Assembly (NCBI GenBank): GCA_945871905.1
Contig: CAMBXL010000018.1
Coordinates: forward strand, 1 to 32,784
Reading direction: 5' to 3'
DNA: 32,784 nt
Source of the DNA: Chitinophaga pinensis
GTDB lineage: Bacteria; Bacteroidota; Bacteroidia; NS11-12g; UBA955
Shown: piece after piece, positions 2,033-24,070 of the stretch
Layout of the letters: each line of letters opens with the position of its first letter
How positions within the stretch are numbered: the stretch's first letter is position 1
The notes under the pieces: model-generated
Seen by the model: only the letters and a program-made list of their open reading frames with translations
What the model was told of the DNA's origin: nothing
Database searches by the model: none
Made by a program: the position numbers and the translations under genes

Positions 2033-3160
2033 ATGAAACAACTATTGTATATCATCGCCTTTTCCGTTCTTGTAAGCTCATGTGCTAGTAACGAACTTGA
2101 AAACAAAAAGAAAGAGTTAACACAACTTAAAAAAGAGTCTAAAGAATTAGCTGAAAAAATCAAAAAGCTAGAATTAGACATTGTAAAATTAGACACTGCT
2201 GTTAAAATTGTAAAAAAGAAAGAAGTAAAAATTGAATCAGTTTCGCTTAGTTCTTTCAGTCATTATATCGACTTACAAGGTGATGTAATAAGCACAGACA
2301 ATGTAATGGTTAACCCTAAAATGGGTGGATTAGTGACAGCAGTTAATGTAGTGGAAGGACAATCTGTAAGCGCAGGTCAAGTATTGGTTCAATTGGACAA
2401 TTCTGTGGCAGCAACAAGTTTAGCAGAAATAGACAATCAATTGAGTTTGGCTACTTTGGTTTACGAAAAACAAAAACGCTTATGGAATCAAAACATTGGA
2501 ACAGAAATTCAATATTTACAAGCCAAAAACAACAAAGAAGCTTTGGAAAAACGCAAAGCAACTACTCAGTCGCAAATCGCAATGAGCAGAATTGTAGCGC
2601 CTTTTTCTGGGATAGTTGACGAAATTAGAGTGAAAGTAGGTGAAATAGCAATGCCCGGAATGGGTGGGGTGCGTGTGGTGAACATGAACAAACTTAAAAT
2701 TACTTCAAAAGTAGCCGATTCTTATGCTTCTCTTTTGAAAAAAGGAGACAAAGTAAAGGTGAATATTCCCGATTTAAACACTGAATTTGAATCAGTAATT
2801 ACCTATGTGGCGCTTAATGTTACAGCGAGTAGCAGAACTTTTGAAATTGAAATTAAAGTACCATCTACCATCAAAAATTTGAAGCCAAACTTGTTAGCCA
2901 GAATTTCTGTAAACGATGCCAATATCAAAGAAGCGATTGTCATTCCATTAAATGCGATTCAAAAATCAGCAAATGGTGACAATGTGGTAATGCTTGCGGT
3001 AAAACAAAATAACAAAACTGTGGCTGTAAATAGAATAATCAAATTGGGAATGTCTTATTTAGATAAAATTGTGGTAACAGAAGGATTAACTAAAGACGAC
3101 CAAATTATTATAGAAGGTAATGAAGATTTAATGGAAGGTCAAGAATTAAACATCAACTAA
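2033..3160 (+). CDS. RND efflux periplasmic adaptor (HlyD/AcrA family lipoprotein)
   Basis: This is a 375-residue membrane fusion protein. The N-terminus MKQLLYIIAFSVLVSSC is a lipoprotein signal with lipobox VSSC, so Cys17 should be lipidated. Residues 22-60 are a charged, Lys/Glu-rich predicted coiled coil (ELENKKKELTQLKKESKEL), longer than in AcrA. The biotinyl-lipoyl-like half motifs follow: GLVTAVNVVEGQSVSAGQVLVQLDN near residues 99-123, and IVAPFSGIVDEIRVKVGEI near 187-205, separated by a helical hairpin. Beta-barrel and membrane-proximal domains fill the C-terminus, ending EGQELNIN. It links the inner membrane pump (next gene, 20 bp away) to the TolC-like channel. The extra N-terminal coiled coil is a Bacteroidota-style feature; its role is unknown. 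Confidence 0.94.
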   Translation: MKQLLYIIAFSVLVSSCASNELENKKKELTQLKKESKELAEKIKKLELDIVKLDTAVKIVKKKEVKIESVSLSSFSHYIDLQGDVISTDNVMVNPKMGGLVTAVNVVEGQSVSAGQVLVQLDNSVAATSLAEIDNQLSLATLVYEKQKRLWNQNIGTEIQYLQAKNNKEALEKRKATTQSQIAMSRIVAPFSGIVDEIRVKVGEIAMPGMGGVRVVNMNKLKITSKVADSYASLLKKGDKVKVNIPDLNTEFESVITYVALNVTASSRTFEIEIKVPSTIKNLKPNLLARISVNDANIKEAIVIPLNAIQKSANGDNVVMLAVKQNNKTVAVNRIIKLGMSYLDKIVVTEGLTKDDQIIIEGNEDLMEGQELNIN

Positions 3161-3180
3161 TATAACAAACGACTGAAACC

Positions 3181-8017: not shown

Positions 8018-8037
8018 AATATATTTGACTTTTTAAT

Positions 8038-10746: not shown

Positions 10747-10771
10747 AGGTTAATTAATCGCAAAATGAGTC

Positions 10772-10804
10772 CAATAAAGGGAATTTTCTCACCTTTATTG
10801 TTTT
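10772..10804 (+). terminator. Probable terminator after the metalloprotease gene
   Basis: CAATAAAGG (10772-10780) pairs with CCTTTATTG (10792-10800) across an 11-nt loop and is followed by TTTT. The stem is 9 bp and A/U-rich, so it is weaker than the other terminators in the window. The rest of 10805-10970 is AT-rich and shows nothing else. Confidence 0.55.
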
Positions 10805-10970
10805 ACAAATTGTTATTTAAACAAATATTAAAAACTCAAAAAAACGCGCAGAATTTGACGATTTGAGGGTTTGATTTTGGGATTATAATGTCCTTACAAT
10901 TTCTTAAAATGCTGATAATCAGTTAATATTAAATTAATAAAAAAATAGTTTTTTAATTGCCCAAAAATCC

Positions 10971-10978
10971 TACTTTTG
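10971..10978 (+). promoter_or_regulatory. -7 promoter box for the DUF2795 gene
   Basis: TACTTTTG followed by C is an exact TAnnTTTG box, 17 bp before the ATG at 10996. Transcription should start near 10985, which leaves a leader of about ten bases and rules out the in-frame TTG at 10957 as the translation start. No good -33 TTG at the expected distance is obvious. Confidence 0.65.
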
Positions 10979-10995
10979 CAAAATATAGAATTAAT

Positions 10996-11217
10996 ATGTA
11001 TTGGACATTAGAATTAGTATCTTATTTAGATGACGCTCCTTGGCCTGCTACAAAAGACGAATTGATAGATTATGCTATTCGTTCAGGCGCACCTATGGAG
11101 GTTGTAGAAAATTTACAAGAGCTTGAAGATGATGGGGAACCGTACGAAAGTATCGAAGAAATATGGAGTGATTATCCTACGGATGATGACTATTTCTTCC
11201 ACGAGGATGAGCATTAA
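10996..11217 (+). CDS. DUF2795-family small acidic protein
   Basis: The 73-residue protein starts MYWTLELVSYLDDAPWPATK and ends with a strongly acidic tail (DDDYFFHEDEH). The core DAPWPATKDELIDYAIRSGA matches the DUF2795 pattern (hydrophobic-Pro-Ala-(S/T)-K-x-E-L-hydrophobic-x-x-A-x-x-x-G-A). Bacteroidota encode a nearly identical short form of this family, by recollection. Its function is unknown. The frame is open upstream to a TTG at 10957, but the promoter box at 10971-10978 and family length favour the ATG at 10996. It converges with the minus-strand gene ending at 11224, only 6 bp away, with no terminator between them. Confidence 0.85.
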   Translation: MYWTLELVSYLDDAPWPATKDELIDYAIRSGAPMEVVENLQELEDDGEPYESIEEIWSDYPTDDDYFFHEDEH

Positions 11218-11223
11218 TAACGC

Positions 11224-12423
11224 TTAGCCAAAAAACACTTTCTTACGTTCTTTCAATGTTTCTGGCTTGAGAGTTTCGCTGAGTGTTGTTGTTTCAATAA
11301 CACTGATTATAGGCTTATGCACTCCTTTTTCACTCACAGCTTGATTTAAAAAATGATTTAATTGCAGTTTTTCCTGCACATTAGGCATGTTGTTGTATTT
11401 GCTTAAGCGCGAAGTTTCGTTTGTATGGGTCGACAAACACAAACAAATACGATCATTCTCCTTTTTAAATTCAATGAAATTTTGTTCCAATAATTCCTCA
11501 ATCTGTGGACTTAGTTTTTCACGCTCTATTGGATTAGAAAAATCATCTACTTTAAGAAAACCACGTTTCAATAAGGTTTTGGTTAACGTAATATTTTGAA
11601 CAAATTTGCTAGGAAGATTGGTTTCAAAAACAGAGAAAAACAAATGATTAGAAGCAATTTTCTCAGAAGTACTCAATTCATCAAATCTGATATGTGTTCT
11701 GAAAACCTGCAACAATGTTGTTTTGCTGTCTTGCAATTCAACCTTAACAAACTCTATTAGCTCTTTTAAGGCACTTTCTGTTGACCGACTCTCCTTGTTG
11801 TAGTGGTGATAGAAATAACGCTCTAAATTGATGCTAAAGACTATTGAACCATATAATTTCCAAAGTCTGTAGTTCAACCACAAAATAATTTGACGTTGAT
11901 TACCAAAGCTGAAATGATTATGTGTATGCCACTGAATGAAAGTGTAGAGAACTTCTTCCAATTCATTGTAAGCTTCTGTTTCAAGTTCCCAAGCTTCAAA
12001 CTGTTGTTTTAACTCAGCAGGACATTCCATTGTTTTGTGAATATTAGAAGAAAACAAGTCGAATGATTGGGTATTTATTTGTGCCGAATTGTCTTTCAGC
12101 AAGACTTCGAAAAGGTTACTAGGTGACTTCGTATTTAAGTCGGCAAACTGTTCGAAAGACTGATGATATTGTTCGGTTTCTTTTTTTAATAAAATATTGC
12201 GACAGATTTTACTTTCCAAAAATTCAGGAAGTAACAACAAGTCGATATTTTGATTAACAAGACAAGCGTACCAAGCTGATTTTTCTTTAAGTGTTTGTTG
12301 TAAAAGTGGTTTTTTGAAACTGTCACCGATGGGCAGTTTATTGTATATTTTGGAGATTTCAAGAAATACACGCTCAAGTTTTGAGATGTCGCTTTCAAAC
12401 TTTTTATGTAATTCTTTAAACAT
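11224..12423 (-). CDS. Unrecognised cytoplasmic protein, largely alpha-helical
   Basis: I do not recognise this protein. From the ATG at 12423 it has 399 residues (MFKELHKKFESDISKLER); an in-frame upstream ATG at 12474 would add 17. It has no signal peptide and no membrane segment. It is rich in Leu, Glu, Lys and Phe, with long stretches that look helical. A central aromatic cluster (FIQWHTHNHFSFGNQRQIILWLNYRLWKLYG, near residues 185-215) is the most distinctive part. The C-terminus is basic (KERKKVFFG). It stands alone between the convergent DUF2795 gene and a repeat-filled gap, so context gives no clue. Both ATGs are preceded by the same GTAAC and by a TAnnTTTG box; the downstream start is preferred because the nearer box lies between the two ATGs. 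Confidence 0.75.
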   Translation of the reverse strand: MFKELHKKFESDISKLERVFLEISKIYNKLPIGDSFKKPLLQQTLKEKSAWYACLVNQNIDLLLLPEFLESKICRNILLKKETEQYHQSFEQFADLNTKSPSNLFEVLLKDNSAQINTQSFDLFSSNIHKTMECPAELKQQFEAWELETEAYNELEEVLYTFIQWHTHNHFSFGNQRQIILWLNYRLWKLYGSIVFSINLERYFYHHYNKESRSTESALKELIEFVKVELQDSKTTLLQVFRTHIRFDELSTSEKIASNHLFFSVFETNLPSKFVQNITLTKTLLKRGFLKVDDFSNPIEREKLSPQIEELLEQNFIEFKKENDRICLCLSTHTNETSRLSKYNNMPNVQEKLQLNHFLNQAVSEKGVHKPIISVIETTTLSETLKPETLKERKKVFFG

Positions 12424-12450
12424 GTTACTTTTCAACCGATTTTGTGTCAA

Positions 12451-12502
12451 CAAAGTTATTGATGTAAAGTGCATGTTACTAAATGTTTAATTCACAAAGT
12501 TA
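12451..12502 (-). promoter_or_regulatory. Two tandem -7 boxes upstream of the unrecognised gene
   Basis: On the minus strand TAACTTTG occurs at 12502-12495 and again at 12458-12451, 44 bp apart. The first lies 21 bp before the ATG at 12474, the second 28 bp before the ATG at 12423. Each could serve one start, giving a long and a short form of the protein; this pairing is inference. Confidence 0.45.
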
Positions 12503-12754
12503 TCAAACTGTCTTTTAAAATGGTGGGTATAGCCGTTTAAAAATGCTTAATCCCCAGTAAACACTCACTTTTTTGCTGTCTTGTTTTGTGTTCAATCACA
12601 AACAAGCTGTCGGGAAGAGATGTCTCCTTTGTGGAGCTTGGGAGGGCCTCACCCCCTGCCCCCTCTCCGAAGGAGAGGGGAGTTTTATTCCGTATATTTT
12701 CTAGTATTGTCATACCGACAAAGGAGGTATCTTGATTCACATTAATCCGAGACC

Positions 12755-12822
12755 AACAACGGCACAAATAATCCTCCAGAGGAGGTAAATATTAATAGCC
12801 TCGGGTTTTAACCCTTGGTTAT
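12755..12822. repeat. Hairpin repeat unit, copy 1
   Basis: This ~68-bp unit starts with ACAACGGCA, then CCTCCAGAGGAGG (self-complementary arms CCTCC/GGAGG), then TAAATATTAATAGCC, and ends with GGGTTTTAACCC followed by TTGGTTAT. The second hairpin is partly decayed relative to copy 2 (CCT...TTGG in place of CCA...GTGG). Confidence 0.8.
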
Positions 12823-12985
12823 AAGCGAACCCACACAAAAAGCACTCTTAGGTGCGCTTTTTAATGGAAACCTAACCACAGAGAACGCAGAGAAAGCACG
12901 GAGGTCACAGAGGGAGGCGGGAGAAGAGACCACAGAGATGCTCTTCGAGCATGGGAAAGTTTGGTGAGATGAAAACAGAGAGAAT

Positions 12986-13053
12986 ACAACAACGGCAAAA
13001 ATACCTCCAGAGGAGGTAAATATTAATAGCCACGGGTTTTAACCCGTGGTTAT
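12986..13053. repeat. Hairpin repeat unit, copy 2
   Basis: This is nearly identical to the unit at 12755-12822. The second hairpin is intact here: CCACGGGTTTTAACCCGTGG at 13030-13049 is a perfect palindrome. The unit lies ~110 bp past the hflX stop on the minus strand, so this hairpin might help end hflX transcription, although no T tract follows on that strand. Confidence 0.8.
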
Positions 13054-13164
13054 GATTAAACACACGCAATCCTTTTTGGCGACTTTTTTGCTTTTTTCTT
13101 GCAAAAAAGATGACAAAAAGAGTTTGGGGGAGGTCTTCACCCACTAAACTAAGCCATGTTACAA

Positions 13165-14340
13165 CTAAAGCAAATTCAAAATACCCATTTTTAGAGCATT
13201 GATATTGGTTTTTTCGGTAGCGGATATAAACACAATAGGTGCATGTTCCTTGCTCAACCAACTTTTTTCAAACTCCGTTAATGAGGTGTCAGGATTTTGT
13301 TTGATGTATTCATCAATTTTATTAAAAACCAATAAGGTGGGTTTCTCTTTGGCACCTATGTCAAACAAAGTTTGCTTTACCAATGTCATTTGATTCTCAA
13401 ACTCAGGATTTGAAATATCAACCACATGTAACAACACATCGGCTTCCACTACCTCTGCCAAAGTGCTTTTGAAACTCTCTATCAACAACGTAGGTAACTT
13501 GCGAATGAATCCTACTGTATCACTTAACAAAATCGGGATAAACTGTCCTTCATTGTGGGGGTCTTCAAACACCACTTTCCTAACCGTAGAATCCAAGGTG
13601 GCAAACAATTTATTTTCTGCCAACACATCGGCCCTACTCAGCAAATTCATTATGGTGCTTTTACCCACATTGGTATAACCAACCAAAGCCACTCTTTTTT
13701 TATCGGTCCTGCTTTGTCTTTGAACTTTGTTTTGTTTGTCTATAAGGGCCAATTTCTCTTTGAGGTCGCTGATATTGCTTCTTATTACCCTTCTATCGGT
13801 TTCTATCTCAGTTTCACCCGGACCTTTCATTCCTATACCCCCTTTTTGTTTGGACAAGTGAGTCCACATTTTGGTAAGTCGAGGTAATAAGTATTGGTTC
13901 AGCGCCAACTCCACTTGGGTTTTTGCTTGTGCTGTTTTGGCATTCTTCGAAAAAATATCCAAAATCAACAAACTACGGTCAATGATTTTAACTTCCTTAA
14001 AGTTTTTTTCTATGTTACGGATTTGTGACGGCGATAACTCATCATCAAAAATAACCACATCGGCTTTATGAAAACCCACCAAATTCATCAATTCTTGCAA
14101 TTTTCCTTCACCTATAAAAGTGCGAGGGTTGGGATAATCCAAATTTTGAGTTAGGCGAGCCGCAGTTCTTGCCCCCGCAGTGGCAGTAAGGGCTTCCAAT
14201 TCATCTAAATATTCAGTTAACTTATTTTCAGGATCACTTTTTTTGTGAACGCCGACTAAAATAGCAATCTCTTGTTTCTTGGAGGTATAGTAAAAATCAG
14301 GTTTCAATGTGGCATTAAATTCTGTTTGTAAAAATAACAC
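13165..14340 (-). CDS. hflX: Ribosome-associated GTPase HflX
   Basis: The 391-residue protein binds the 50S subunit and splits stalled or stress-arrested ribosomes, using GTP. The N-terminal HflX domain is clear from EYLDELEALTATAGA (~43-57) and the glycine-rich linker GGIGMKGPGETEIETDRR (167-184). The G domain follows: P-loop GYTNVGKST (221-229), switch II DTVGFI, and G4 NKID. A short C-terminal domain ends INALKMGILNLL. Family conservation begins near residue 22. The only plausible in-frame starts are GTG at 14340 and TTG at 14307; a TAA stop sits 5 codons above the GTG. No ATG is available in frame, which is odd for a housekeeping gene. An out-of-frame ATG at 14360 opens an 18-codon reading frame (MAKLQGLCYFYKQNLMPH) overlapping the hflX start. 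Confidence 0.93.
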   Translation of the reverse strand: MLFLQTEFNATLKPDFYYTSKKQEIAILVGVHKKSDPENKLTEYLDELEALTATAGARTAARLTQNLDYPNPRTFIGEGKLQELMNLVGFHKADVVIFDDELSPSQIRNIEKNFKEVKIIDRSLLILDIFSKNAKTAQAKTQVELALNQYLLPRLTKMWTHLSKQKGGIGMKGPGETEIETDRRVIRSNISDLKEKLALIDKQNKVQRQSRTDKKRVALVGYTNVGKSTIMNLLSRADVLAENKLFATLDSTVRKVVFEDPHNEGQFIPILLSDTVGFIRKLPTLLIESFKSTLAEVVEADVLLHVVDISNPEFENQMTLVKQTLFDIGAKEKPTLLVFNKIDEYIKQNPDTSLTEFEKSWLSKEHAPIVFISATEKTNINALKMGILNLL

Positions 14341-14376
14341 AAACCTTGTAATTTAGCCATTTAATTTACATAAATT

Positions 14377-15843
14377 TTGTTTGGCGCTTTTAACCCTTCC
14401 TTTTCCCGCTTTACACTGCTGATATTAGCCTTTGGTTTTTATCTTTCATTGGGTGCGCAACAGGTGGTTTGGGCCAACAAGAACAATCTCGATAAAAAAA
14501 CAAATTTTACCAAAGTTATTGGTCAAAATCAACACGGTGTTTATGTGCTCAAACACAAAAACAGTTCGTTCAAAAAGTATTTTATAGTGGAACATTTCGA
14601 CAAGAAAATGAATTTGTTGCGCAATAAAATGTACAAAATTAACAATGCACAACTCGAAAAAATCATTGTAAACAATGATGGTTTTGTGTTTTTTGTTAAA
14701 AATTTTGACAAAAACAATGTCAAGCGTTTGTCCATGCATTTTGTCGATTCTAGTTTGAATGAAATCAAAAAAATAGACATCCATCAAACAGGTATTAATG
14801 CCTTTACGCCGCTTTACAAAATATACTACAATACAGACAAAACCTTATACATGATTGCCTCTGTTTCCGATTCTGCTAACCAATCTATTCTCCAATACCA
14901 TTTGGTTAAAAATCAAGAAATACAGGTGCAAGGTCGTTATATTTTGCCATACGCTTTTGATGAAATGTATATTGGTGACGGTTGTATTGACAACAGTGGA
15001 CAATTGTTCTTTTTGATATCGCAGTCGCAAAAGTTTAAAAGTAAAAATGCCTCCGATTTTTTCCATTATGTCATGGCCTTTAATCCCCATTCGCTCAACT
15101 TCCAATCGCAACTTATCAATAACGAAAAAACCTATTTAAGCAATTACCAATTGGTGTACAATTACCAAACAAATAAGGTACAAGCCTGTGGTTTTTATGG
15201 TGAAAATTATGAGGATGAAAACTTGGGTTACTTTGTTATTTCAATGCTTCCTACCACATTAAAACCCGAACACATTGTTTTTAAGCAAATAGAACGGAGT
15301 ATAGTCGCTCAAATAATAGGGGTAAAAAGTGAGTCGAAAGGCGAGAATTTGAATAAATTTGACATCAAAAAAATTATTCCCAAAGCCAATGGGGGATTAG
15401 TGATGATAAGTGAACGTGCTTTTGTAACCACACAAAGTGATATTTTTTATATCAATGGCGTACCACAAAGCAGTTATGCCAAAATATTTAACAACGACGA
15501 AGTTTTGATACTCAGTTTAGACAGTGTTTTCGAACCGCAATGGACCGATGTGGTAAACAAAACCCAATCCTCTATCAACGACGGTGGTTTTTACAACGGA
15601 ATAATCACCATGGTGAATGACGATGAGTTTAATATTTTATACAACGACCGCATCAGCGCCAATGCAGACATTGTACAAATCAGTTATAACGAAAATGGCA
15701 GAATGACTAAAAAAATAATACTGAATAACGACCAATATTATGCCCTCATTATTCCGGCAGAAAGTCGGCAAGTGAATGCTAATAGCATCGTTATTCCGGT
15801 CAATCAAAACAGAGATTTCACCTATATTAAACTCATTTATTGA
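14377..15843 (+). CDS. Secreted protein of unknown function
   Basis: I do not recognise the family. The 488-residue protein starts with a hydrophobic signal sequence (FTLLILAFGFYLSLGAQQ, residues ~12-29) typical of Bacteroidota secretory proteins that end in Gly-Ala-Gln. The rest looks beta-rich with repeated Asp/Asn-Gly turns, compatible with a propeller-like fold (several FHYVMAF..., YIGDGCIDNSGQLFFLIS, IIPKANGGLVMISERAF strands), but this is only by eye. There is no T9SS tail. The start is forced to be TTG 14377, because TAA at 14371 closes the frame and no ATG precedes the signal sequence. The start lies only 36 bp from the divergent hflX start. It overlaps the next gene by TTGA, so the two are probably translated together. 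Confidence 0.72.
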   Translation: MFGAFNPSFSRFTLLILAFGFYLSLGAQQVVWANKNNLDKKTNFTKVIGQNQHGVYVLKHKNSSFKKYFIVEHFDKKMNLLRNKMYKINNAQLEKIIVNNDGFVFFVKNFDKNNVKRLSMHFVDSSLNEIKKIDIHQTGINAFTPLYKIYYNTDKTLYMIASVSDSANQSILQYHLVKNQEIQVQGRYILPYAFDEMYIGDGCIDNSGQLFFLISQSQKFKSKNASDFFHYVMAFNPHSLNFQSQLINNEKTYLSNYQLVYNYQTNKVQACGFYGENYEDENLGYFVISMLPTTLKPEHIVFKQIERSIVAQIIGVKSESKGENLNKFDIKKIIPKANGGLVMISERAFVTTQSDIFYINGVPQSSYAKIFNNDEVLILSLDSVFEPQWTDVVNKTQSSINDGGFYNGIITMVNDDEFNILYNDRISANADIVQISYNENGRMTKKIILNNDQYYALIIPAESRQVNANSIVIPVNQNRDFTYIKLIY

Positions 15844-16805
15844 TACGTTTATTTTCAAATAACTACAACCAAACTATTTTTTTTCTAATAGTATTTGCCT
15901 TTGGACTCAGAAGTGCAGGTTTTGTTACGCCCTATGTTAATACCAATGCGCCACTGGCATTGAATTATATACAGCAAATATTTAACTATATTAACTATTA
16001 TCCGCAGCTTGGTTTTTTTGTTTCCACGTTTTTGGTCATCATTGCTGCTTTGGTGTTTAACCGCATTTGCAATAAACATGGATTGGTCATTGTTACCTCC
16101 TATTTGCCCGCGTATTTTTACATAGTATTGAATTCGGTGTTTGTGGATCAGTTTTATGCCGGTCCGGTGTTGTTTGTTAACTTGTTAATGATTGTTTCAT
16201 TGGGTTCTATTTTGAATTTATACCATTCCGATTCGCCTTATTTCTCCTTGTTTTCGGCCTCTTTTTTGGCAGGATTAAGTGCTTTATTGAACACCACTTA
16301 CATGGCATTTTTTGTGATAGTGCTATTGGGAATCAATGTCTTTAGACCTTTTAATTTCAGGGAACATATTTCGGCCTTTGTGGGCTTTTTAATGCCTTTG
16401 TACATTGGCACTATGTTGAATTATTTATTGAATGGTAATTTTTTGCCTTTTTACATTTTCTTTCCCGATTACGGTAGTTTCAATAATCAGTTTTGGGCCT
16501 TAAAATCCATGTTACCATTTTTGGGATTCATTTTTGTTTTGGCGATATTGAGGATGAACAAAAACTATTTCAGAAACACCATTAAGCAGCGGCGCGCCAT
16601 ACAGTTGATGGTATTAACGATAGTCATGTGTGTGGTATTAATGACTACAGGCAAACAAAATCCTAAGCAAGAATTCTCATTTGTAGCATTTCCTTTGGCC
16701 TTTTATTTTTCCTATTACTTCACCAACAGTCGATTCAATTTCCTAAAGGAGCTCCTCAATATTTTACTCATCGTAGGCATTGTCTTTTTCCATTATTGGG
16801 GGTAA
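15840..16805 (+). CDS. DUF6427-like polytopic inner membrane protein
   Basis: The 321-residue protein has about eight to ten hydrophobic segments (for example IFFLIVFAFGL near 12-23, FFVSTFLVIIAALVF ~58-72, MLPFLGFIFVLAIL ~222-235, LLNILLIVGIVFF ~306-318). The pattern MIRLFSNN... then small aromatic-rich TM helices and the YIFFPDYGSFNNQFW loop resembles the DUF6427 membrane proteins of Bacteroidota; this assignment is by resemblance only and the function is unknown. Translation begins at TTG 15840, overlapping the TGA stop of the upstream secreted protein (TTGA), a coupling arrangement that supports both non-ATG starts and a shared role at the envelope. The HNH nuclease gene begins 3 bp after its stop codon. 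Confidence 0.75.
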   Translation: MIRLFSNNYNQTIFFLIVFAFGLRSAGFVTPYVNTNAPLALNYIQQIFNYINYYPQLGFFVSTFLVIIAALVFNRICNKHGLVIVTSYLPAYFYIVLNSVFVDQFYAGPVLFVNLLMIVSLGSILNLYHSDSPYFSLFSASFLAGLSALLNTTYMAFFVIVLLGINVFRPFNFREHISAFVGFLMPLYIGTMLNYLLNGNFLPFYIFFPDYGSFNNQFWALKSMLPFLGFIFVLAILRMNKNYFRNTIKQRRAIQLMVLTIVMCVVLMTTGKQNPKQEFSFVAFPLAFYFSYYFTNSRFNFLKELLNILLIVGIVFFHYWG

Positions 16806-16808
16806 AAT

Positions 16809-17852
16809 ATGACACTACCAATTAACAATAAACTAAATACAAATATACTTGCAGCGTGCTTTAAAAGTACAGTTGCAACCTATAAATTTTATTGGTTATT
16901 GGCAATAATTGAGTCTGTTGAAGAGGGAAAAGTTGAAATCAATAAAATTGAATTATTTTCAAAAATGGTTTCAAGTGCATGGTATACAGTTAACTATTTT
17001 AAATTGTCATTTGGTAAGCAAGATTTAATTCAAGAGGCTATTTCAAAAATAAAAATATTAGAAGAGTTAAATAAAAACGAAAGTAAAAACTTTTTAAATA
17101 AAAAAATATCAAATTCTAGCAACGATTTAACATTAAAGACTTTAAATCATTTTGATAACAATGTTCCTCATTGGTTTTTAAGTCCTTGGTTTATTCAATC
17201 TAGCAAAACTGAAATATATACAAGGTCTCAAAAATTTGAAAATAATTGTCTATATGCATTGTATAAAGATCAAATTATAATTAACCCACAATGGATAGTT
17301 TATTTGACTGAAAATGCTAAGATTATAAAAGATTTTTGTTACTGGAATCTTTCTATATTCTTGCAATCTAAAAATCCAAATGTACCAGATATACCCAATA
17401 AAATAATTAAACCAGCATTAAGAAATTCATTAACAAAACAAAGAAATGAATTTTGGAAAAATGTATTTGATAATGAAGGGAGTATTGATTGTATATTTTC
17501 TGGTAAATCTTTATCAATTGAAAATAATAATTTTGACATAGATCATTATGTACCATATGCTTTTATTTCACATGATTTAATTTGGAATTTAGCTCCTGTA
17601 GATAAAGAGTTTAACAATAAAAAAAGTGATAAACTACCAAACAAAGAACAGTATTTTGATAAGTTTTATCAATTGCAAGAAAAAGCCTTTTATATTAATA
17701 AAAACATAAATCCTTATAGTAAATATATGGAAGAATATTTAACCATTTTCTCAAGTTTGGATACCTTCAATAAAGAAAGATTCAAAGAAACAATTCAACC
17801 ATTGATTATTATTGCATCAAACAATGGATTTTCATACATGAAAGATGAATGA
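16809..17852 (+). CDS. HNH endonuclease
   Basis: The 347-residue protein has an unclassified N-terminal ~215 residues (ATYKFYWLLAIIESVEEG, then SAWYTVNYFKLSFGK) and a C-terminal HNH nuclease fold. Key residues are Cys228 (DCIFSGKSL), Asp245-His246 (DIDHYVP), Asn260 (WNLAPVD) and Asn269-Asn270 followed by KKSDK. This arrangement, with WNL and NNKKS, matches the HNH_4-like group that includes Cas9-type and defence-associated nucleases. His246 would be the general base. The N-terminal region likely selects the substrate but is not identifiable. The gene is visibly more AT-rich than its neighbours (roughly a quarter G+C by eye), which suggests recent acquisition. It overlaps the next gene by 8 bp (ATGAATGA), so the two work together. 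No promoter is evident; read-through from upstream is possible. Confidence 0.85.
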   Translation: MTLPINNKLNTNILAACFKSTVATYKFYWLLAIIESVEEGKVEINKIELFSKMVSSAWYTVNYFKLSFGKQDLIQEAISKIKILEELNKNESKNFLNKKISNSSNDLTLKTLNHFDNNVPHWFLSPWFIQSSKTEIYTRSQKFENNCLYALYKDQIIINPQWIVYLTENAKIIKDFCYWNLSIFLQSKNPNVPDIPNKIIKPALRNSLTKQRNEFWKNVFDNEGSIDCIFSGKSLSIENNNFDIDHYVPYAFISHDLIWNLAPVDKEFNNKKSDKLPNKEQYFDKFYQLQEKAFYINKNINPYSKYMEEYLTIFSSLDTFNKERFKETIQPLIIIASNNGFSYMKDE

Positions 17853-18708
17853 GCAGAACAACATATATAGCCATTTAACCGCAAAGGAGAGAGACTCAAT
17901 CTCTTTTCCAGCTAGGCATTTATTAAAAAATAATTTGCTCAAAGGGAAAGTCTTGGATTTTGGTTGTGGATTGGGTTCTGATGTTAATATTTTAAAGGAA
18001 AAAGGGGTTGATGTAGTTGGGTATGATAAATTTTATTTTCCTCAATTACCCAATGAAAAGTTTGACACTATTATCTGCTTGTATGTACTTAATGTTTTAC
18101 AGAAAGAAGAACAAACGGAGGTATTACTTAAAGTTTCTCAATTACTAAATCCAGCAGGCATTGCCTATTTTGCAGTAAGAAGAGATGTGAAGTTTGAAGG
18201 CTTTAGAACACATAAAATCCATCAGAAACAAACCTATCAGTGTAATGTAGTTTTGCCGTATAAAAGCATATTATTGAACGAGTATAGCGAAATTTATGAG
18301 TACAAACACATTAATCAGTCAGAGTTAAATTTATCCAGCGATTGTCCCTTTTGTAATCCAGATAAAGATAGAGAAATTATATTAGAATCGGCATCTGTTT
18401 ACGCTATTTACGACAAATTTCCAGTAAGCAATGGGCATGTATTAATAATTCCTAAAAAGCACGTTTCCAATTATTTTCAATTAAGTTTTAAAGAGCAAAG
18501 TGCTTGTTGGTTTGTATTAAATTCAGTTCAGAAAATAATTCAAGAAAAGTTTAATCCTGATGGTTTTAACGTAGGAATAAATATCAATGAAACGGCAGGT
18601 CAAACAGTGCCTCATGTCCATATTCACTTAATTCCAAGATATAATGGCGATGTCGAAATTCCCCGTGGAGGAGTAAGGGGAGTTATTCCAACTAAGAAAG
18701 AGTATTGA
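17845..18708 (+). CDS. Fusion of SAM-dependent methyltransferase and HIT hydrolase/transferase
   Basis: The 287-residue protein joins two enzymes. Residues 1-~160 form a class I methyltransferase: motif I VLDFGCGLGSD (36-46), acidic residue of motif II Asp61 (VVGYD), and FDTIICLYVLNVL (73-85) at the motif IV position. There is no NPPY or PC motif, so it is not a classic amino or C5 DNA methyltransferase. SFPARHLLKNN and GYDKFYFPQ recall the DNA phosphorothioation-associated putative methyltransferases (TIGR04096), by memory. Residues ~165-287 form a HIT domain: CPFC (167-170), PVSNGHVLIIPKKH (193-206), histidine triad HVHIH at 257-261, and GDVEIPRGGVRGVIP (268-282). HIT proteins hydrolyse or transfer nucleotidyl groups; aprataxin removes AMP from DNA ends. 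The pairing with an HNH nuclease suggests work on nucleic acid, but the substrate is unknown. Confidence 0.88.
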   Translation: MNEQNNIYSHLTAKERDSISFPARHLLKNNLLKGKVLDFGCGLGSDVNILKEKGVDVVGYDKFYFPQLPNEKFDTIICLYVLNVLQKEEQTEVLLKVSQLLNPAGIAYFAVRRDVKFEGFRTHKIHQKQTYQCNVVLPYKSILLNEYSEIYEYKHINQSELNLSSDCPFCNPDKDREIILESASVYAIYDKFPVSNGHVLIIPKKHVSNYFQLSFKEQSACWFVLNSVQKIIQEKFNPDGFNVGININETAGQTVPHVHIHLIPRYNGDVEIPRGGVRGVIPTKKEY

Positions 18709-18883
18709 TGATGAAAGAGAAAGGGATCTCTGTTTGTTTTTGATAAGTTATTAAATTTATTGATGTTTGATATCTAACAACAATATTTGAATTTTTAAAC
18801 CCAACAATTTCTCCTTCATATTTTAGTTTGTTTTCAAAATATGGAATCCCAAAATTTATTTTTTGACCAACTTTTATTTTCAT
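18692..18883 (-). CDS. Small protein of unknown function, convergent with the methyltransferase-HIT gene
   Basis: The 63-residue reading frame starts MKIKVGQKINFGIPYFENK and continues YEGEIVGFKNSNIVVRYQ. Alternating hydrophobic residues with Gly turns suggest a small beta-barrel (SH3- or KOW-like), though no family is recognised. It overlaps the 3' end of the methyltransferase-HIT gene by 17 bp on the opposite strand. A near-match -7 box (TATTTTCG on the minus strand, one mismatch) lies just upstream with a TTTG at a reasonable distance. It fills an otherwise empty gap, and its protein-like composition argues against chance, but it may still be spurious. Confidence 0.5.
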   Translation of the reverse strand: MKIKVGQKINFGIPYFENKLKYEGEIVGFKNSNIVVRYQTSINLITYQKQTEIPFSFIINTLS

Positions 18884-18924
18884 TTAACACGAAAATAGTA
18901 ATTAATATTAACTCAAAAAAATTA

Positions 18925-19356
18925 TTAATATAATTTTTCCTCCCCCCCATGTTTTTCCCAATAATCCTTACCGTAGCTGCAAAAAATTTCTTCACCAGCT
19001 TTAATGGTTTTAGTGGCCACCAAACAAACCTGTTGTTCGTCGTTTAAGGTGATAATGCAGTTGTTTTTGAAGGCCGTTTGGGTTCCTGTGGCGTCATTGG
19101 CATATTTGGCAAAACAGTCAGTGTGTTTGGAATCCATGGTTTTGCCATTGAGTAAACTGATAAAATAGTGGTCTTCCTTGAGCAAAGCCCATTTCTCTGC
19201 TTCATCATCACTCAGTAATTCACCCTCAAATACCGCAATTTGTTCTTCTTTAAAGAGCTTAATAGCAGTAAACAACCCTGATCCTGCATTTTGTATTTGC
19301 GAAGTGTCTATGTAAAGATAATCGCTTTCTTCGGCTTCTATTTTTTGAATAATCAT
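18925..19356 (-). CDS. SET-domain protein (putative lysine methyltransferase)
   Basis: From ATG 19356 the protein has 143 residues, close to a bare SET domain. GSGLFTAIKLFKEEQIAVFEGE (25-46) is the N-terminal SET strand set (G-x-G-L-F/hydrophobic-A), DCFAKYANDA...NNC (~80-100) corresponds to the NHxCxPN region in a diverged form, and AGEEIFCSYGKDYW (~121-134) is the C-terminal GEEhxxxYG motif with the active-site Tyr. Bacterial stand-alone SET proteins transfer methyl groups from SAM to lysine side chains; the target is unknown. The frame remains open to 19395, but those 13 codons come from a dispersed repeat in the leader, so ATG 19356 is chosen. The C-terminal codons run through seven consecutive G residues, a possible slippage site. 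Confidence 0.85.
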   Translation of the reverse strand: MIIQKIEAEESDYLYIDTSQIQNAGSGLFTAIKLFKEEQIAVFEGELLSDDEAEKWALLKEDHYFISLLNGKTMDSKHTDCFAKYANDATGTQTAFKNNCIITLNDEQQVCLVATKTIKAGEEIFCSYGKDYWEKHGGEEKLY

Positions 19357-19373
19357 GGGAGGGAGGGTTGAGG

Positions 19374-19420
19374 CCCTTCGAGAGCACTTCGACAAGCTCA
19401 GTACAAGCTCTCAGGGTGAC
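19374..19420. repeat. Palindromic repeat in the SET-gene leader
   Basis: The unit begins CCCTTCGAGAGC and ends CTCTCAGGGTGAC; inside it is CTTCGACAAGCTCAG, the core of a short palindrome scattered through many bacterial genomes. It lies between the likely promoter (19441-19448) and the start of the SET gene, so it is transcribed as part of the leader and can fold as GAGAGC...GCTCTC. Confidence 0.75.
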
Positions 19421-19440
19421 ATTGGGTTAGGATTTAGGGG

Positions 19441-19448
19441 CAAAGATA
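19441..19448 (-). promoter_or_regulatory. -7 promoter box for the SET-domain gene
   Basis: The minus strand reads TATCTTTGCCC, an exact TAnnTTTG box plus the commonly following C. Transcription would start near 19434, giving a ~78-nt leader that contains the palindromic repeat. The gene's ATG is at 19356. Confidence 0.55.
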
Positions 19449-19504
19449 TGAGACAAGTCCTAAATTAAGTTTACAGTTTAATTTATTTGATACTTCCGGA
19501 AACC

Positions 19505-19576
19505 CCCTTCGAGAGCCCCCCTCACGTGACTAGGCTCAGCCTAGTGGGTGACACCCTTCGAGAGCCTCAGGGTGAC
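19505..19576. repeat. Two adjacent nested palindromic repeats
   Basis: Unit 19505-19552 starts CCCTTCGAGAGC, carries CACGTGACTAGGCTCAGCCTAG (CTAGGCT/AGCCTAG inverted repeat), and ends GGGTGAC. Unit 19554-19576 is the minimal form, CCCTTCGAGAGC joined directly to CTCAGGGTGAC. The larger unit looks like the minimal one with a hairpin inserted inside it. The rest of the 19396-20054 gap holds the comM fragment and AT-rich sequence upstream of the phosphodiesterase gene. Confidence 0.75.
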
Positions 19577-19609
19577 AATTAAACCATTTAAACCCATTAA
19601 ACAATTCAA

Positions 19610-19918
19610 CAATCACGCTGCAAGGTATGAACCAATAACTACCCTGCCCAATTTTCCCTTTCCAAGCTACGCTATTGAATTGGCTTCGGCTAAATGTTCA
19701 ATCTTTATCTCTTCAGATTTTTCCAAATCGGCAATCGTTCTGCTCACTTTCAAAATTCTGTCGTAAGCCCTTGCACTCAAATTTAACCTTTGCATTGCCG
19801 TTTTTAATAATTGAGTGCCTGCTTCACTTATGGGACACAAATCCTTAATTTGATTGCTAGGCATTTGAGCATTGCAATACACGCCTATTGATTTTTCTTC
19901 ATATCTCAACGATTGAAT
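19610..19918. repeat. Direct repeat, left copy (comM 3' end and downstream flank)
   Basis: This copy matches 22491-22798 at about 95% identity, with one 1-bp indel. The match starts in CAATCACGCTGCAAGGT and ends in GATTGAAT, after which the two sequences diverge abruptly. The pair encloses the phosphodiesterase gene and lies in direct orientation. Confidence 0.92.
19639..19918 (-). pseudogene. Truncated duplicate of the comM 3' end
   Basis: The fragment encodes the last ~90 residues of the ComM/YifB ATPase (from [17 protein letters not shown] to the family C-terminus), copied from the intact gene at 22520-24070. It lacks everything upstream and shows two inactivating changes near its end: an inserted A after the HLAEA codons, which shifts the frame, and TAC changed to TAG in the original frame. 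In the aligned part before the frameshift, I count about eleven differences, of which only one (Gln to Lys) alters the protein. An open frame continues upstream to 20134, but that part has no similarity to ComM and overlaps the phosphodiesterase start. Confidence 0.92.
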
Positions 19919-20054
19919 CATTTCAGTGAGATAATTTATTTTAAAAATAGGTATTAAATTGATAAGCGATTTGATCATGAATTTAAACTTATAATAATTG
20001 TAAAATATTAATTCATTAACCGCTCGATAATGTATCAATTTTAATGTTGTTGAG

Positions 20055-22103
20055 ATGAAAAATTTTTTAAAAATACACCTTATGGTGTTCCTGTTACTTG
20101 TTACAGGAAAACTAACAGCACAATCAAAAATCATTGATTACAACAGAAATCTTGGTCAATCAGAAAAAATGGTTTTTAATCCAGAATTAAAACCATTTTA
20201 CCACGGTGTTGCTTCAGGTGATCCACTTACAGACAGAGTAATAATATGGACACGTATTACACCTGATTCAGGTGTTTCCGCTCTTAAAAACGTGAATTGG
20301 CAGGTTGCTACAGACTCATTGTTTAAGTCGGTTGTTAAGTCGGGTATATTTACGACCTATTCAAGTATAGATTATACAGTAAAGGTAGATGTTACAGGTC
20401 TTCAGCCAGGTACCACGTACTATTACGCTTTTAGCTATCAAGGAACTTATTCGTTAACAGGAAGAATGCGCACTGCATCAAACAATGCTAACCATTTGCG
20501 TTTTGCGGTTGTATCTTGTAATAATTATGAAGCAGGTTTTTTTAATGGATTTAAGAAAATAGGTCAACGTAATGACATTGATGCTGTGATACATCTAGGA
20601 GATTATATTTATGAATATCAGCCAAAAGGTTACGGAGATTCTTTGACAGGTCGATTTGTTGAGCCAGCAAAAGAAATTGTAACATTAGACGATTATCGTA
20701 CTAGGTATTCTGTTTATCGTTTAGATCAAGATTTGCGTTATGCGCATCAACAACAAACATTCATTTCTATATGGGATGACCATGAGTCTACAAACGATTC
20801 GTATAAAGATGGAGCAGAAAATCATCAATCAAATGAAGGTGATTGGCAAACAAGAAAAGAAATTTCAAAAAGGGTGTATTTTGAATGGATGCCAATAAGA
20901 GAAGAAAGTAGTAATAGTATTTACAGAAAAATTTCATATGGTTCAATGCTTGATTTAATTATGCTTGATACACGATTAGAAGGAAGAGTTAAACCACCAA
21001 CAAATTTTGATGATATAGACATACCTGCTAGAACAATGTTGGGTAAAACTCAATACAATTGGTTTATCAACAACCTCAAAACTTCTACAGCAAAATGGAA
21101 AGTGATCGGCAATCAAGTATTATTCAGTGATATGAACGTAGGATTTGGTGCGGTTAATTCTCAAGGTCAGCCAGCAATTACTGATATCAACGCGATCCGT
21201 GCCGTAGAGAATTTATTTGTTGACAATTGGGATTCATATCCAACTGAGCGAAACTCAATAATGGATACTATCAAAAATAGAAACATTAAAAACACAATTT
21301 TTCTAACAGGAGATTCGCATGCTAGTTGGAGTTTTGACTTAACTAAAAAACCAGCTAATTATCCCAATGCTGCAACAGCAAATTTGCCTACACCATCCTC
21401 AACTTATAATCCTACTAATGGCAATGGATCAGTGGGAGTTGAATTTGCGACACCAAGTATCACTTCTGCAAACTTTGACGAAGCAATAGGAAAAGCAACT
21501 ACAGCGCAGTTTGAGTATTTGATTAATAATCCAGTTCCTGTAGGTCCTCCATTTGGATCAGTGGTTTATAATCCGCATTTAAAATATGTAGACCTTGACC
21601 GTCATGGTTATTTTATCTTAGATTTAAAAGATGATTCTGCACAAGCTGATTATTTTTATGTAGATACATTGAGAATATCTTCAAATAAAGAAAAGTTTGG
21701 AAGAGGTGTAGTTACAGCAAACAATAGCAATAGAATAACACGTTTAAGTTCATTTGCATCTATTGGAAAATCTAAACAAGATGGTCAAGCACCAACTAAA
21801 CCTCAGTCCAAAGCAACAGGAGTTAAAGAACTTAATAGCATTGAAGCAATTATAATTGGAGCCTACCCAATACCTGCATTTAATGTATTGAATATTAATT
21901 ATGCCATAAACAAAAGCGGTGTAACTGAAATTGCAATTTTTGATGTTAATGGTAAAACTATTGGAACTGAAAGAATAGGTTTTCAGCCATCAGGAGTTTA
22001 CACTTATAGTTTTGATGTAAGTAAATTTCCAACGGGTGTTTACTTCTTTAATCTTATCCTCGATGGCCGTATTGTAAATAATGGAAAATACATAAAGTCA
22101 TAA
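20055..22103 (+). CDS. PhoD-like secreted alkaline phosphatase/phosphodiesterase with T9SS sorting tail
   Basis: The 682-residue protein has a signal peptide (MKNFLKIHLMVFLLLVTGKLTAQ), the PhoD N-terminal Ig-like domain (FYHGVASGDPLTDRVIIWTR, residues 48-67, to ~140) and the metallophosphatase domain. Metal-site candidates follow the PhoD pattern: Cys155 (VVSCNNYEAGFF), Asp183 (HLGDYIYEY), Asp241-Asp242-His243-Glu244 (WDDHESTND), GNQVL, and LTGDSHASW. PhoD enzymes use iron and calcium to hydrolyse phosphate mono- and diesters such as teichoic acid, nucleotides or phospholipids, and often serve phosphate scavenging. The last ~75 residues (AYPIPAFNVLNINY ... FPTGVYFFNL) are a T9SS type A sorting domain, so it probably reaches the cell surface. 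It lies alone between the two comM direct repeats and has its own terminator. No clear -7 box was found upstream. Confidence 0.92.
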   Translation: MKNFLKIHLMVFLLLVTGKLTAQSKIIDYNRNLGQSEKMVFNPELKPFYHGVASGDPLTDRVIIWTRITPDSGVSALKNVNWQVATDSLFKSVVKSGIFTTYSSIDYTVKVDVTGLQPGTTYYYAFSYQGTYSLTGRMRTASNNANHLRFAVVSCNNYEAGFFNGFKKIGQRNDIDAVIHLGDYIYEYQPKGYGDSLTGRFVEPAKEIVTLDDYRTRYSVYRLDQDLRYAHQQQTFISIWDDHESTNDSYKDGAENHQSNEGDWQTRKEISKRVYFEWMPIREESSNSIYRKISYGSMLDLIMLDTRLEGRVKPPTNFDDIDIPARTMLGKTQYNWFINNLKTSTAKWKVIGNQVLFSDMNVGFGAVNSQGQPAITDINAIRAVENLFVDNWDSYPTERNSIMDTIKNRNIKNTIFLTGDSHASWSFDLTKKPANYPNAATANLPTPSSTYNPTNGNGSVGVEFATPSITSANFDEAIGKATTAQFEYLINNPVPVGPPFGSVVYNPHLKYVDLDRHGYFILDLKDDSAQADYFYVDTLRISSNKEKFGRGVVTANNSNRITRLSSFASIGKSKQDGQAPTKPQSKATGVKELNSIEAIIIGAYPIPAFNVLNINYAINKSGVTEIAIFDVNGKTIGTERIGFQPSGVYTYSFDVSKFPTGVYFFNLILDGRIVNNGKYIKS

Positions 22104-22479: not shown

Positions 22480-22490
22480 AAACAAATAAA

Positions 22491-22798
22491 CAATCACGCT
22501 GCAAGGTGAAAACCTATAACTACCCTGCCCAATTTTCCCTGTCCAAGCTACGGTATTGAATGGCTTCGGCTAAATGTTCAATCTTTATTTCCTCTGATTG
22601 TTCCAAATCAGCAATCGTTCTGCTCACTTTCAAAATTCTGTCGTAAGCCCTTGCACTCAAATTTAACCTTTGCATTGCCGTTTTTAATAATTGAGTGCCT
22701 GCTTCACTTATTGGACACAAATCCTTAATTTGATTACTCGGCATTTGAGCATTGCAATACACGCCTATTGATTTTTCTTCATACCTTAAAGATTGAAT
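22491..22798. repeat. Direct repeat, right copy (3' end of intact comM and flank)
   Basis: This is the partner of 19610-19918. It covers the last ~93 codons of the functional comM gene plus ~30 bp downstream. The two copies are separated by about 2.57 kb holding the phosphodiesterase gene and repeat cluster. Confidence 0.92.
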
Positions 22799-24070
22799 GT
22801 CTCTCGCTTTCTGTACACGCTCTCTAACCAATTGACTGCTTTCATTGTTGCGTTTTCTGCTCGATAATTCTTCAAAACTTACAGGTGTAACCTCAATGTG
22901 AATGTCAATTCTATCCAAAAGAGGGCCACTTATTTTACTTAAATACCTTTGAACTATTCCCGGTCCGCAAACACAGTCTTTTTCGGGATGATTATAATAG
23001 CCACATGGACAAGGATTCATACTTGCTACTAACATAAAACTAGCAGGATAGTCGACCGAAAACCTCGCCCTTGATATGTTTACTTTTCTGTCTTCAAGGG
23101 GTTGACGCATCACCTCCAAAACAGTTCTTTTAAATTCGGGTAATTCATCCAAAAACAACACCCCGTTGTGTGCCAAGGAAATTTCGCCTGGTTGTGGTGT
23201 ATTTCCTCCCCCTACAAGCGCCACATCGCTAATGGTATGGTGCGGAGAACGAAATGGTCTGTGAGCAACCAAACTGGCATTGTCGCCCAACTTACCTGCT
23301 ACAGAATGAATTTTGGTAGTTTCCAAAGCTTCTTGTAGGGTCATGGGAGGCAATATAGTAGGCAATCGCTTGGCCAACATTGTTTTACCTGCTCCGGGAG
23401 GTCCTATCAATATGATATTATGACCCCCTGCCGCCGCTATTTCCATGGCTCTTTTGATATTTTCTTGACCTTGTACGTCGGCAAAATCTACGTCAAAATC
23501 ATTCACGCGGTCGGCAAAATCACTTCGTGGGTCGGCGGTTACTAAGTTCAACTGTTGAGTGCCATTAAAAAAATCAACCACATCGGTTAATTTTTCTACT
23601 CCATATACCTCCAAACCTTTAACAATTGCCGCCTCTTTAGCATTTTGAATTGGCAAAATAAATCCTTTAAAACCTTCCTTTTGCGCTTGAATAGCGATAG
23701 GTAAAGCCCCTTTAATTGGCAAAATACTTCCATCCAAAGACACCTCACCCATTATAATGTATTGGGTTAACTGTTCGGGTGATACAATTTGTTCACTCGC
23801 TGCTAATATGCCTGTGGCTATTGTTAAGTCATAAGCACTGCCTTCTTTTTTAATATCAGCAGGCGCCATATTGACTACGATTTTCTTCCGTGGCCACGAC
23901 AATTCGGTGTTTTTAAAGGCCGTTTCTATTCTAAGCGAACTTTCCTTTACGGCATTATCAGGCAATCCAACAAGTGCATAAAAAGCACCATCGCCACTCA
24001 CATTTACTTCTACAGTAATGGTATAGGCATTTACGCCATATACAGCTGAACCAAAGGTTTTAACAAACAT
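22520..24070 (-). CDS. comM: ComM/YifB-family Mg-chelatase-like AAA+ ATPase
   Basis: The 516-residue protein matches family length. It has an N-terminal Lon-protease-like domain (~1-170, including [19 protein letters not shown]), a Mg-chelatase-type AAA+ core with Walker A GPPGAGKT (223-230), LFLDELPEF as Walker B, and [17 protein letters not shown] Cys-rich insert [20 protein letters not shown] probably binds zinc. The C-terminal Mg_chelatase_C domain ends LDRENWAG. ComM is a hexameric helicase that drives branch migration while incoming single-stranded DNA is integrated during natural transformation. It is the last gene of an apparent dsbD-like > gmhA > comM run (39 bp after gmhA). Its 3' end is duplicated at 19639-19918; this copy is intact. 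Confidence 0.95.

Follow-up and report, generated by a model that had tools for sequence, protein, structure and literature searches.

What might a bacterium gain from a DNA endonuclease that is encoded in overlap with a methyltransferase fused to a HIT domain? The question is raised by a stretch of DNA from Chitinophaga pinensis, the window of this study, which is one entire contig (C18; CAMBXL010000018.1) of 32,784 bases from a genome (G000) of 2.5 Mb that is 99.7% complete. The window holds an HNH nuclease gene followed by a gene for a methyltransferase-HIT fusion (MT-HIT, used here for both gene and protein), and the two genes together are referred to as the cassette. The answer to which we incline, with somewhat more belief than doubt, is that the cassette is a horizontally mobile restriction-type defence module with HNH and HIT as its core, probably derived from the nuclease arm of Ssp systems and later self-sufficient. 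Its function, phage defence included, is proposed from sequence comparison. The features of the cassette are as follows.

16809..17852, plus strand: HNH endonuclease gene, 347 amino acids, type A (about 350 amino acids, with the N-terminus 'ATYKFYW'); from the open reading frame (ORF), Pfam and alignment.
16824..17348, plus strand: N-terminal helical region of the HNH protein (residues 6-180), winged-helix-like in the predicted model.
17490..17639, plus strand: HNH_4 nuclease domain (residues 228-277), Cas9-HNH-like; from Pfam and invariant columns.
17544-17546, plus strand: codon of HNH H246, read in the DNA; N260, N269 and K272 are also invariant.
17845..17852, plus strand: overlap of the HNH stop and the MT-HIT start, 8 bp, ATGAATGA, read in the DNA.
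17845..18708, plus strand: MT-HIT gene, 287 amino acids; from the ORF, Pfam, alignment and predicted model.
17920..18180, plus strand: class I S-adenosylmethionine (SAM) methyltransferase domain (MT-HIT residues 26-112 by Pfam; the fold spans about 5-158).
18361..18645, plus strand: HIT domain (MT-HIT residues 173-267), of the Fhit/HIT-hydrolase branch; from Pfam and structure match.
18613..18627, plus strand: HIT triad HVHIH (H257-V-H259-I-H261), read from the DNA; H259 is in the nucleophile position.

The presence of an HNH nuclease beside a methyltransferase-HIT fusion, as the original prediction had it, is borne out by Pfam, where all three domains score above their cut-offs: HNH_4 (PF13395) at residues 228-277 of the nuclease (42.2 bits versus 22), Methyltransf_23 at residues 26-112 of MT-HIT (44.8 versus 27) and HIT (PF01230) at residues 173-267 (84.4 versus 21.5), with HVHIH at 257-261. 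In Fhit-type enzymes the central histidine of the triad is the nucleophile. The 8-bp overlap claimed for the two genes is likewise found in the DNA, positions 17845-17852 reading ATGAATGA, and translational coupling of HNH and MT-HIT via this overlap is likely.

The pair is kept across the genomes of many unrelated bacteria. Among 84,980 species genomes scanned for MT-HIT, 167 relatives were confirmed; the locus counts rest on the best 80, which were split by record title into 43 cyanobacterial loci and 37 others (including L007, titled just 'bacterium'). By tblastn, a window-like HNH sequence lies directly upstream of MT-HIT in all 37 non-cyanobacterial loci and in none of the 43 cyanobacterial ones, and the HNH ORF overlaps the MT-HIT ORF in 37 of 37 when ORFs are called from the first possible start. 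A second sample of 395 Bacteroidota genomes partly overlaps the first (G000, G223 and probably G052 are shared). Full-length MT-HIT is present in 17 of these genomes, twice with an internal stop, and an HNH-profile match in 29; both genes occur in 16 genomes and are adjacent in 16 of 16. In the seventeenth MT-HIT genome, G311, the gene 3 bp upstream is of HNH_2 type instead, and every full MT-HIT in the sample (17/17) thus adjoins an HNH gene, 16 by profile and one HNH_2. The HNH beside MT-HIT in G224 sits in a 555-amino-acid methyltransferase-HNH fusion. Searched in the reverse direction, 20 genomes have an HNH match of at least 99 bits; the match adjoins MT-HIT in 15, a HIT-only gene in G295, and neither of these in G050, G109, G278 and G252. 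The hypergeometric value for co-occurrence, 9e-20, should be read as an illustration only, since MT-HIT-linked genes were the source of the HNH profile and the two samples have a few genomes in common. The pairing of HNH and MT-HIT is far beyond chance, and the neighbourhood check proposed along with the original prediction finds the two genes together with few exceptions (37 of 37 loci; 16 of 17 genomes by profile). Carriers with culture-collection names include Tangfeifania diversioriginum DSM 27063, Cecembia rubra DSM 28057 and Algoriphagus boritolerans DSM 17298.

The state of the HIT triad follows the presence of the nuclease. All 37 loci with HNH retain the central histidine, all 43 without HNH have S, N, G or T in its place, and the histidine is kept in 16 of the 17 full MT-HIT proteins of the 395-genome sample. 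Cyanobacterial MT-HIT, with the central histidine lost and no HNH neighbour, offers a natural comparison for the role of this histidine toward the nuclease.

Different nuclease families have been recruited to one MT-HIT partner. The nucleases of the 37 loci are of two types, of about 350 and 370 amino acids (A and B); type B is 16-19% identical to the window HNH, and the aligned MT-HIT proteins are 59-84% identical to the window MT-HIT. On an MT-HIT tree of 51 rows (the window, 36 non-cyanobacterial loci, 13 cyanobacterial ones and L161; left out were L072, whose start codon was missed in ORF calling, and 30 of the 43 cyanobacterial rows), made by a quick method with support from the Shimodaira-Hasegawa-like approximate likelihood ratio test (SH-aLRT) only, types A and B switch at least six times, four switches being forced by starred branches. 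HIT proteins without a methyltransferase also keep company with nucleases. In the 395 genomes, the 13 best HIT-only matches include seven that are beside or fused to HNH, counting matches above a boundary to general HIT proteins (E about 3e-28) that was drawn after inspection of the list. An HNH-HIT fusion is encoded in the same-genus genome L193, HNH adjoins a HIT-only gene in L195 (same genus) and L194 (same family), and four of six plasmids inspected for HIT relatives have, beside the HIT gene and in either order, a gene annotated as HNH or matching the HNH profile. Because HIT without the methyltransferase pairs with, or fuses to, HNH, the core is probably HNH plus HIT, with the methyltransferase an addition.

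Several fused forms were noted besides. Single-protein HNH-HIT fusions of 265-336 amino acids, with an HNH of another family, are located at L167:3428-4423, L190:3365-4375 and L193:3575-4372 (Pfam on L167 and L190). Fusions of 555-590 amino acids that join a methyltransferase, a TYK-type N-terminal region and HNH are located at L182:2777-4549, in L183-L186 and at L175:4850-6517 (Pfam on L175 and L182); in L175 an MT-HIT gene adjoins the methyltransferase-HNH fusion gene.

A hint of phosphorothioation in the original prediction found its counterpart in the flanking genes, the cassette lying beside sspB, sspC, sspD or sspB remnants in several loci. Among 127 flanking proteins (a set of 129, from which two very long ones were dropped), there are two matches each to SspB, SspD, DUF4007 and PAPS reductase. 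SspB (E 6e-105) is encoded 5 bp upstream of HNH in L020. An SspD gene follows MT-HIT after 3 bp in L015 (E 2e-90, PADLOC), and in L006 one precedes the HNH gene, as called, by 3 bp (E 2e-94, PADLOC). N-terminal remnants of sspB precede HNH in three loci, as located by tblastn.

L010:6253-6591: sspB remnant of about 104 residues, 355 bp before HNH; confirmed by PADLOC (E 8e-54).
L015:6720-6890: sspB remnant of about 57 residues, 4 bp before HNH.
L048:6821-6916: sspB remnant of about 32 residues, 11 bp before HNH; the weakest of the three (tblastn E 7e-8).

Ssp genes or sspB remnants are thus within 0.4 kb of the cassette in 5 of the 37 loci (L006, L010, L015, L020 and L048), for which a rough chance expectation, with SspB within two genes and 3,500 genes assumed per genome, is about 0.001 loci. 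G296 has the gene order sspB-sspC-HNH-MT-HIT, with overlaps or a 4-bp gap between genes (PADLOC: SspB E 1e-104, SspC E 1e-225), and shows no sspD match in its 13.3-kb stretch, the contig ending 2.8 kb behind MT-HIT. HNH without HIT has a cysteine desulfurase, DUF4007 or both in its vicinity on three of the eight distinct plasmids inspected and in G278, and the set on pSYSM of Synechocystis (L141) matches SspA/DndA, SspB and SspC. The sspB remnants suggest that ssp genes decayed, perhaps repeatedly, around a surviving cassette; alternatively, they may reflect insertion into sspB. No Ssp gene was found near the cassette in the window, and the window genome has no match in a genome-wide search for SspB (DUF4007, PF13182). 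Dependence on Dnd was considered and rejected for the 18 cassette genomes searched, G000 included, in which no DndC exceeds the TIGR03183 cut-off (there is one weak match, in G140, of 19.5 bits); the same is true of 14 control genomes. The pSYSM region 7783-20071 also carries a TIGR04096-annotated methyltransferase, an HNH of the cassette family, a nucleotidyltransferase/DUF86 pair and an AAA/DUF4276 pair.

The cassette is patchily distributed (17 of 395 Bacteroidota genomes, 4%), and its neighbours vary among the 37 non-cyanobacterial loci. The upstream block in the window, which ends in a 321-amino-acid gene, is kept in 12 same-genus genomes, and only in G001 does the cassette stand behind it. 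A fixed housekeeping position, against which the first reading was to be checked, is therefore not seen: the cassette is missing from the site in 11 of the 12 genomes and has other neighbours elsewhere. A serine recombinase gene (Resolvase and Recombinase domains) is 1.5 kb from the cassette in L004. Defence genes recur in the vicinity, as judged from 20 hand-picked flanking proteins of 12 of the 37 loci that were scanned singly with PADLOC, and from PADLOC on the 127 flanking proteins, which gives families rather than members and, having no control set, yields no enrichment figure. Strong matches are AbiEii in L072, a Mokosh-like helicase in L056, PDC-S60 in L073 and a type II methylase with a restriction-enzyme match in L014; in L076, TIR-PNTD and pAgo genes directly follow MT-HIT with gaps of 1 and 11 bp (L076:3766-6626). 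The hand-picked flanking proteins of L033, L077 and L016 gave no defence match. A phage origin was rejected, as scans of viral contigs with both proteins, which cover close relatives only, confirmed no relative; among 42 phage records matching MT-HIT, none covers 80% of the protein. Streptomyces phage phiSASD1 (L135) has, at 3042-4369, a HIT gene whose product is 43% identical to the HIT of MT-HIT, beside a gene annotated as AANH-like.

The HNH active site is intact, with H246, N260 and N269 invariant in 33 aligned sequences. Pfam detects no domain besides HNH_4 at E up to 1 in this protein, and hence neither DUF262 nor DUF1524. The closest solved sequences are Cas9 HNH domains (E 9.5e-9, PDB sequence scan), and the Cas9 model TIGR01865 gives 26.4 bits, on the HNH part only, against a cut-off of 100, short of Cas9 membership. 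A CRISPR link was rejected because HNH matches only the HNH portion of Cas9 models and, at chance level, Csm3. The AlphaFold model of HNH has a mean predicted local distance difference test score (pLDDT) of 86 and a predicted template-modelling score (pTM) of 0.61. Its residues 206-340 match Cas9 HNH domains with Z up to 6.0 in VIA-align, and residues 6-180 give weak matches to ORC winged-helix regions (Z 6.0, root-mean-square deviation (rmsd) 3.9 over 98 residues); the N-terminal region has no significant Foldseek match. A Z of about 6.0 by itself is no proof of the folds in this model, and the HNH assignment rests on sequence. Pfam and PDB sequence scans of HNH gave no match to a sulfur-binding domain (SBD), which does not exclude its presence.

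The model of MT-HIT (mean pLDDT 88) resembles HIT hydrolases (3imi, Z 16.8, rmsd 1.8 over 113 residues; Fhit, Z 16.2) and solved SAM methyltransferases (Z 12.7-12.9). The likeness of its methyltransferase part to TIGR04096, drawn in the original prediction, is real and partial: 61.1 bits over the first 98 of 478 model positions (residues 7-100), where the cut-off for the family is 150. The TIGR04096-annotated protein of pSYSM is 27-45% identical to MT-HIT proteins over 76-160 residues. A pattern search of the 287 residues found no DNA-methylase motif IV ([DNS]PP[YFW]) and no C5 PC motif. In PADLOC-DB 2023, HNH matches Cas9 and Csm3, MT-HIT matches ThsC and mad2, and no model covers the pair.

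A working scheme for a mobile defence module can be sketched from these properties. The winged-helix-like part of HNH would recognize DNA, possibly by a mark on the backbone or on a base, and the nuclease domain would nick or cut the recognized DNA. The HIT domain would be catalytic and needed only while the nuclease is present, removing a nucleotidyl or thio-nucleotidyl group so as to control or complete the cut. The group may come from a nucleotide signal that licenses the nuclease, in which case HIT would be an off-switch sparing the host, or from adenylated or thiolated DNA ends that arise once the cut is made. Marking of DNA, or of that same nucleotide, would fall to the methyltransferase in an accessory role. 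As to its origin, the module was probably at first the nuclease arm of Ssp-type loci and later came to work without them.

Several observations weigh against this scheme. Intact HNH genes without HIT are found in G050 (followed by a transposase gene), in G278 and on plasmids, and because such genes persist, the nuclease need not be lethal alone; the HNH profile was made only from MT-HIT-linked genes, by which unlinked nucleases are under-sampled. The 13 cyanobacterial tree rows form one clade (support 99), so that the correlation between HIT histidine and HNH may be close to a single event. G219 reads HAALH beside an intact HNH, and the triad of G296 is QAHIH, with the first histidine lost. 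For four of the 13 HIT-only loci no HNH gene was found next to HIT, and two more are at contig ends. As for the Ssp link, no Ssp gene was found in 32 of the 37 loci by the searches run, the SspC of G296 matches no more than the first 663 of the 1039 positions in the model, for which reason its Ssp set may be incomplete, and the genome-level co-occurrence of DUF4007 (SspB) is weak (3/17 versus 25/395, p 0.08); the link is carried by adjacency, and the genome-level count is only a trend. The winged-helix match of the HNH N-terminus is also weak.

A broader proposal, which we hold tentatively and with clearly more doubt than belief, is that HNH-HIT systems are a distinct defence class, in which an endonuclease works together with a histidine-triad hydrolase, the latter taking a nucleotidyl or thiophosphate group off DNA ends or off a nucleotide that serves as an alarm signal. 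The class would have been assembled several times from unrelated HNH nucleases, would have gained a TIGR04096-type methyltransferase in one successful branch, and would have grown from, and outlived, Ssp systems. If the cassette protects against phage, a HIT-controlled nuclease joins the known effectors, and the unexplained TIGR04096-type methyltransferases, which are named after phosphorothioation loci, acquire a role.

The alternative that survives best is a true restriction-modification pair, in which MT-HIT would mark host DNA (by methylation, or by nucleotidyl or hypermodification through both domains) and HNH would cut unmarked DNA, the pair replacing SspD/SspE on an SspBC scaffold. The overlapping genes, always together in the 37 non-cyanobacterial loci, accord with it, as do the kinship of the methyltransferase domain to TIGR04096 and the presence of sspB and sspC with no sspD match up to the contig end in G296. 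However, MT-HIT has neither motif IV nor the C5 PC motif expected in a type II system, HIT-only and fusion variants dispense with the methyltransferase, and it would be odd for a sequence-matched pair that MT-HITs of 59-84% identity to that of the window serve nucleases of only 16-19% identity to the window HNH. We consider this alternative unlikely.

Still less probable is a toxin-antitoxin or addiction module, with HNH as the toxin, MT-HIT disarming it directly or destroying its activator, and phage defence as a secondary effect. The small overlapping bicistron, the exchange of partners, the retention beside decayed sspB and the HIT-HNH pairs on plasmids would suit such a module. In toxin-antitoxin operons, however, the order of the cassette, toxin first and antitoxin second, is the less usual one, and nuclease genes of the cassette family persist without a HIT partner. 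A housekeeping unit for DNA or RNA repair or processing is the least probable of all, since its occurrence in 4% of Bacteroidota genomes, changing flanks and repeated contact with defence genes speak against it, even though nucleic-acid ends are processed by some HIT enzymes, aprataxin among them (PMC4530458), and MT-HIT stands without an adjacent HNH gene in all 43 cyanobacterial loci.

The mobile defence module remains the preferred reading, and its setting in the window bears some further traits. The HNH gene begins with an ATG 3 bp past the stop of the 321-amino-acid gene, whose product has a DUF6427 match below threshold; the 3-bp spacing from a membrane-protein gene described earlier is thereby seen in the DNA. 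The nuclease gene had also been called AT-rich, and its G+C (GC) content is indeed 24.3%, against 33.0% for MT-HIT and 35.6% for the remaining window. As a sign of recent arrival this trait fails: the GC of the HNH gene is below that of its flanks in 35 of the 37 homologous loci (MT-HIT, 28 of 37), from which low GC appears as a general property of the HNH gene, and recent import signalled by AT-richness was rejected. Behind the cassette is the small convergent gene reported before, which is optional among the relatives.

18692..18883, minus strand: small convergent gene, 63 amino acids, optional; from the ORF, with kin in L004 and L006.

Relatives of this gene in the same place were seen, among the loci compared, only in L004 and L006 (31-38% identity), and none was found in L003, the 84% sister; its product has a weak RimP SH3-like Pfam match below cut-off. 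A small SET-domain protein is encoded just past the cassette (18925-19395; 39.8 bits versus a cut-off of 22.4). Further on, a direct repeat of 238 nucleotides (95%) plus 82 nucleotides (90%) is shared by 19599-19918 and 22480-22798; it is the duplicated 3' end of a comM-like Mg-chelatase gene (intact copy 22520-24070), the copies being about 2.9 kb apart and flanking a PhoD-like phosphatase gene. This repeat may be the trace of an insertion at comM. Neither the SET nor the PhoD gene was found behind the shared upstream block in the 12 relatives, and G001 has a comM copy about 6 kb further on.

How does the cassette compare with described systems? Among the titles and abstracts of the matches listed by searches of open-licence PMC full text, none describes an HNH-HIT or MT-HIT system or a HIT enzyme wired to HNH. 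In passages of comparative papers, the whole word 'HIT' is absent from PMC10853773, occurs only within CD-HIT or 'top hit' in PMC12839542, and refers only to ThsC in PMC8565338. The phosphorothioation-based defence systems SspABCD-SspE and SspFGH come near the cassette, whose HNH has sspB, sspC or sspD as a neighbour in several loci; SspB, SspC and SspD are also common to Ssp systems and type-4 bacteriophage exclusion (BREX) (PMC12839542). SspE and DndI are HNH nickases that work with a modification module (PMC11662687). These nickases are DUF262 plus DUF1524 proteins, whereas the cassette HNH combines a winged-helix-like part with HNH_4, and it has an MT-HIT partner that does not appear in the parts of the descriptions considered (PMC11662687; PMC12839542). 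DndI, which has SspE-like domains, is encoded next to the genes of its modification module and does harm when the mark is missing (PMC11662687). The SBD-HNH enzymes ScoMcrA, SprMcrA and EcoWI are similar in having an N-terminal DNA-reading module, presumed for the cassette HNH, and a C-terminal HNH. Such phosphorothioate-dependent enzymes are rarely near dnd clusters (under 3.6% of cases; PMC7461809), whereas the cassette HNH recurs beside Ssp genes and has a partner gene; as HNH adjoins ssp genes, the cassette fits the DndI pattern better than that of SBD-HNH.

On the side of MT-HIT, the N-terminal portion of about 95 residues in TIGR04096 proteins is homologous to it, although MT-HIT is much shorter and fused to HIT. 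Type II Thoeris also has a HIT protein, ThsC, in a defence locus, and the PADLOC model of ThsC matches the HIT of MT-HIT with 41 bits. The authors of PADLOC suggested, as one of its possible roles, that ThsC switches off a nucleotide signal (PMC8565338). Thoeris type II employs TIR/SIR2-type partners, whereas the partner in the cassette is a DNA endonuclease; no TIR or SIR2 partner was found among the 13 window ORFs scanned, the cassette included. HIT hydrolases are known from signalling and the breakdown of diadenosine tetraphosphate (Ap4A). They also participate in aprataxin-type DNA-end repair and in resistance to peptide-nucleotide antibiotics (PMC7157772; PMC4530458), and HINT1 converts dGMPS to dGMP, setting H2S free (PMC8775712). 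The HIT of MT-HIT has the same fold and triad as the HINT/Fhit hydrolases, and it is unlike them in that it is fused to a methyltransferase and encoded together with an HNH nuclease.

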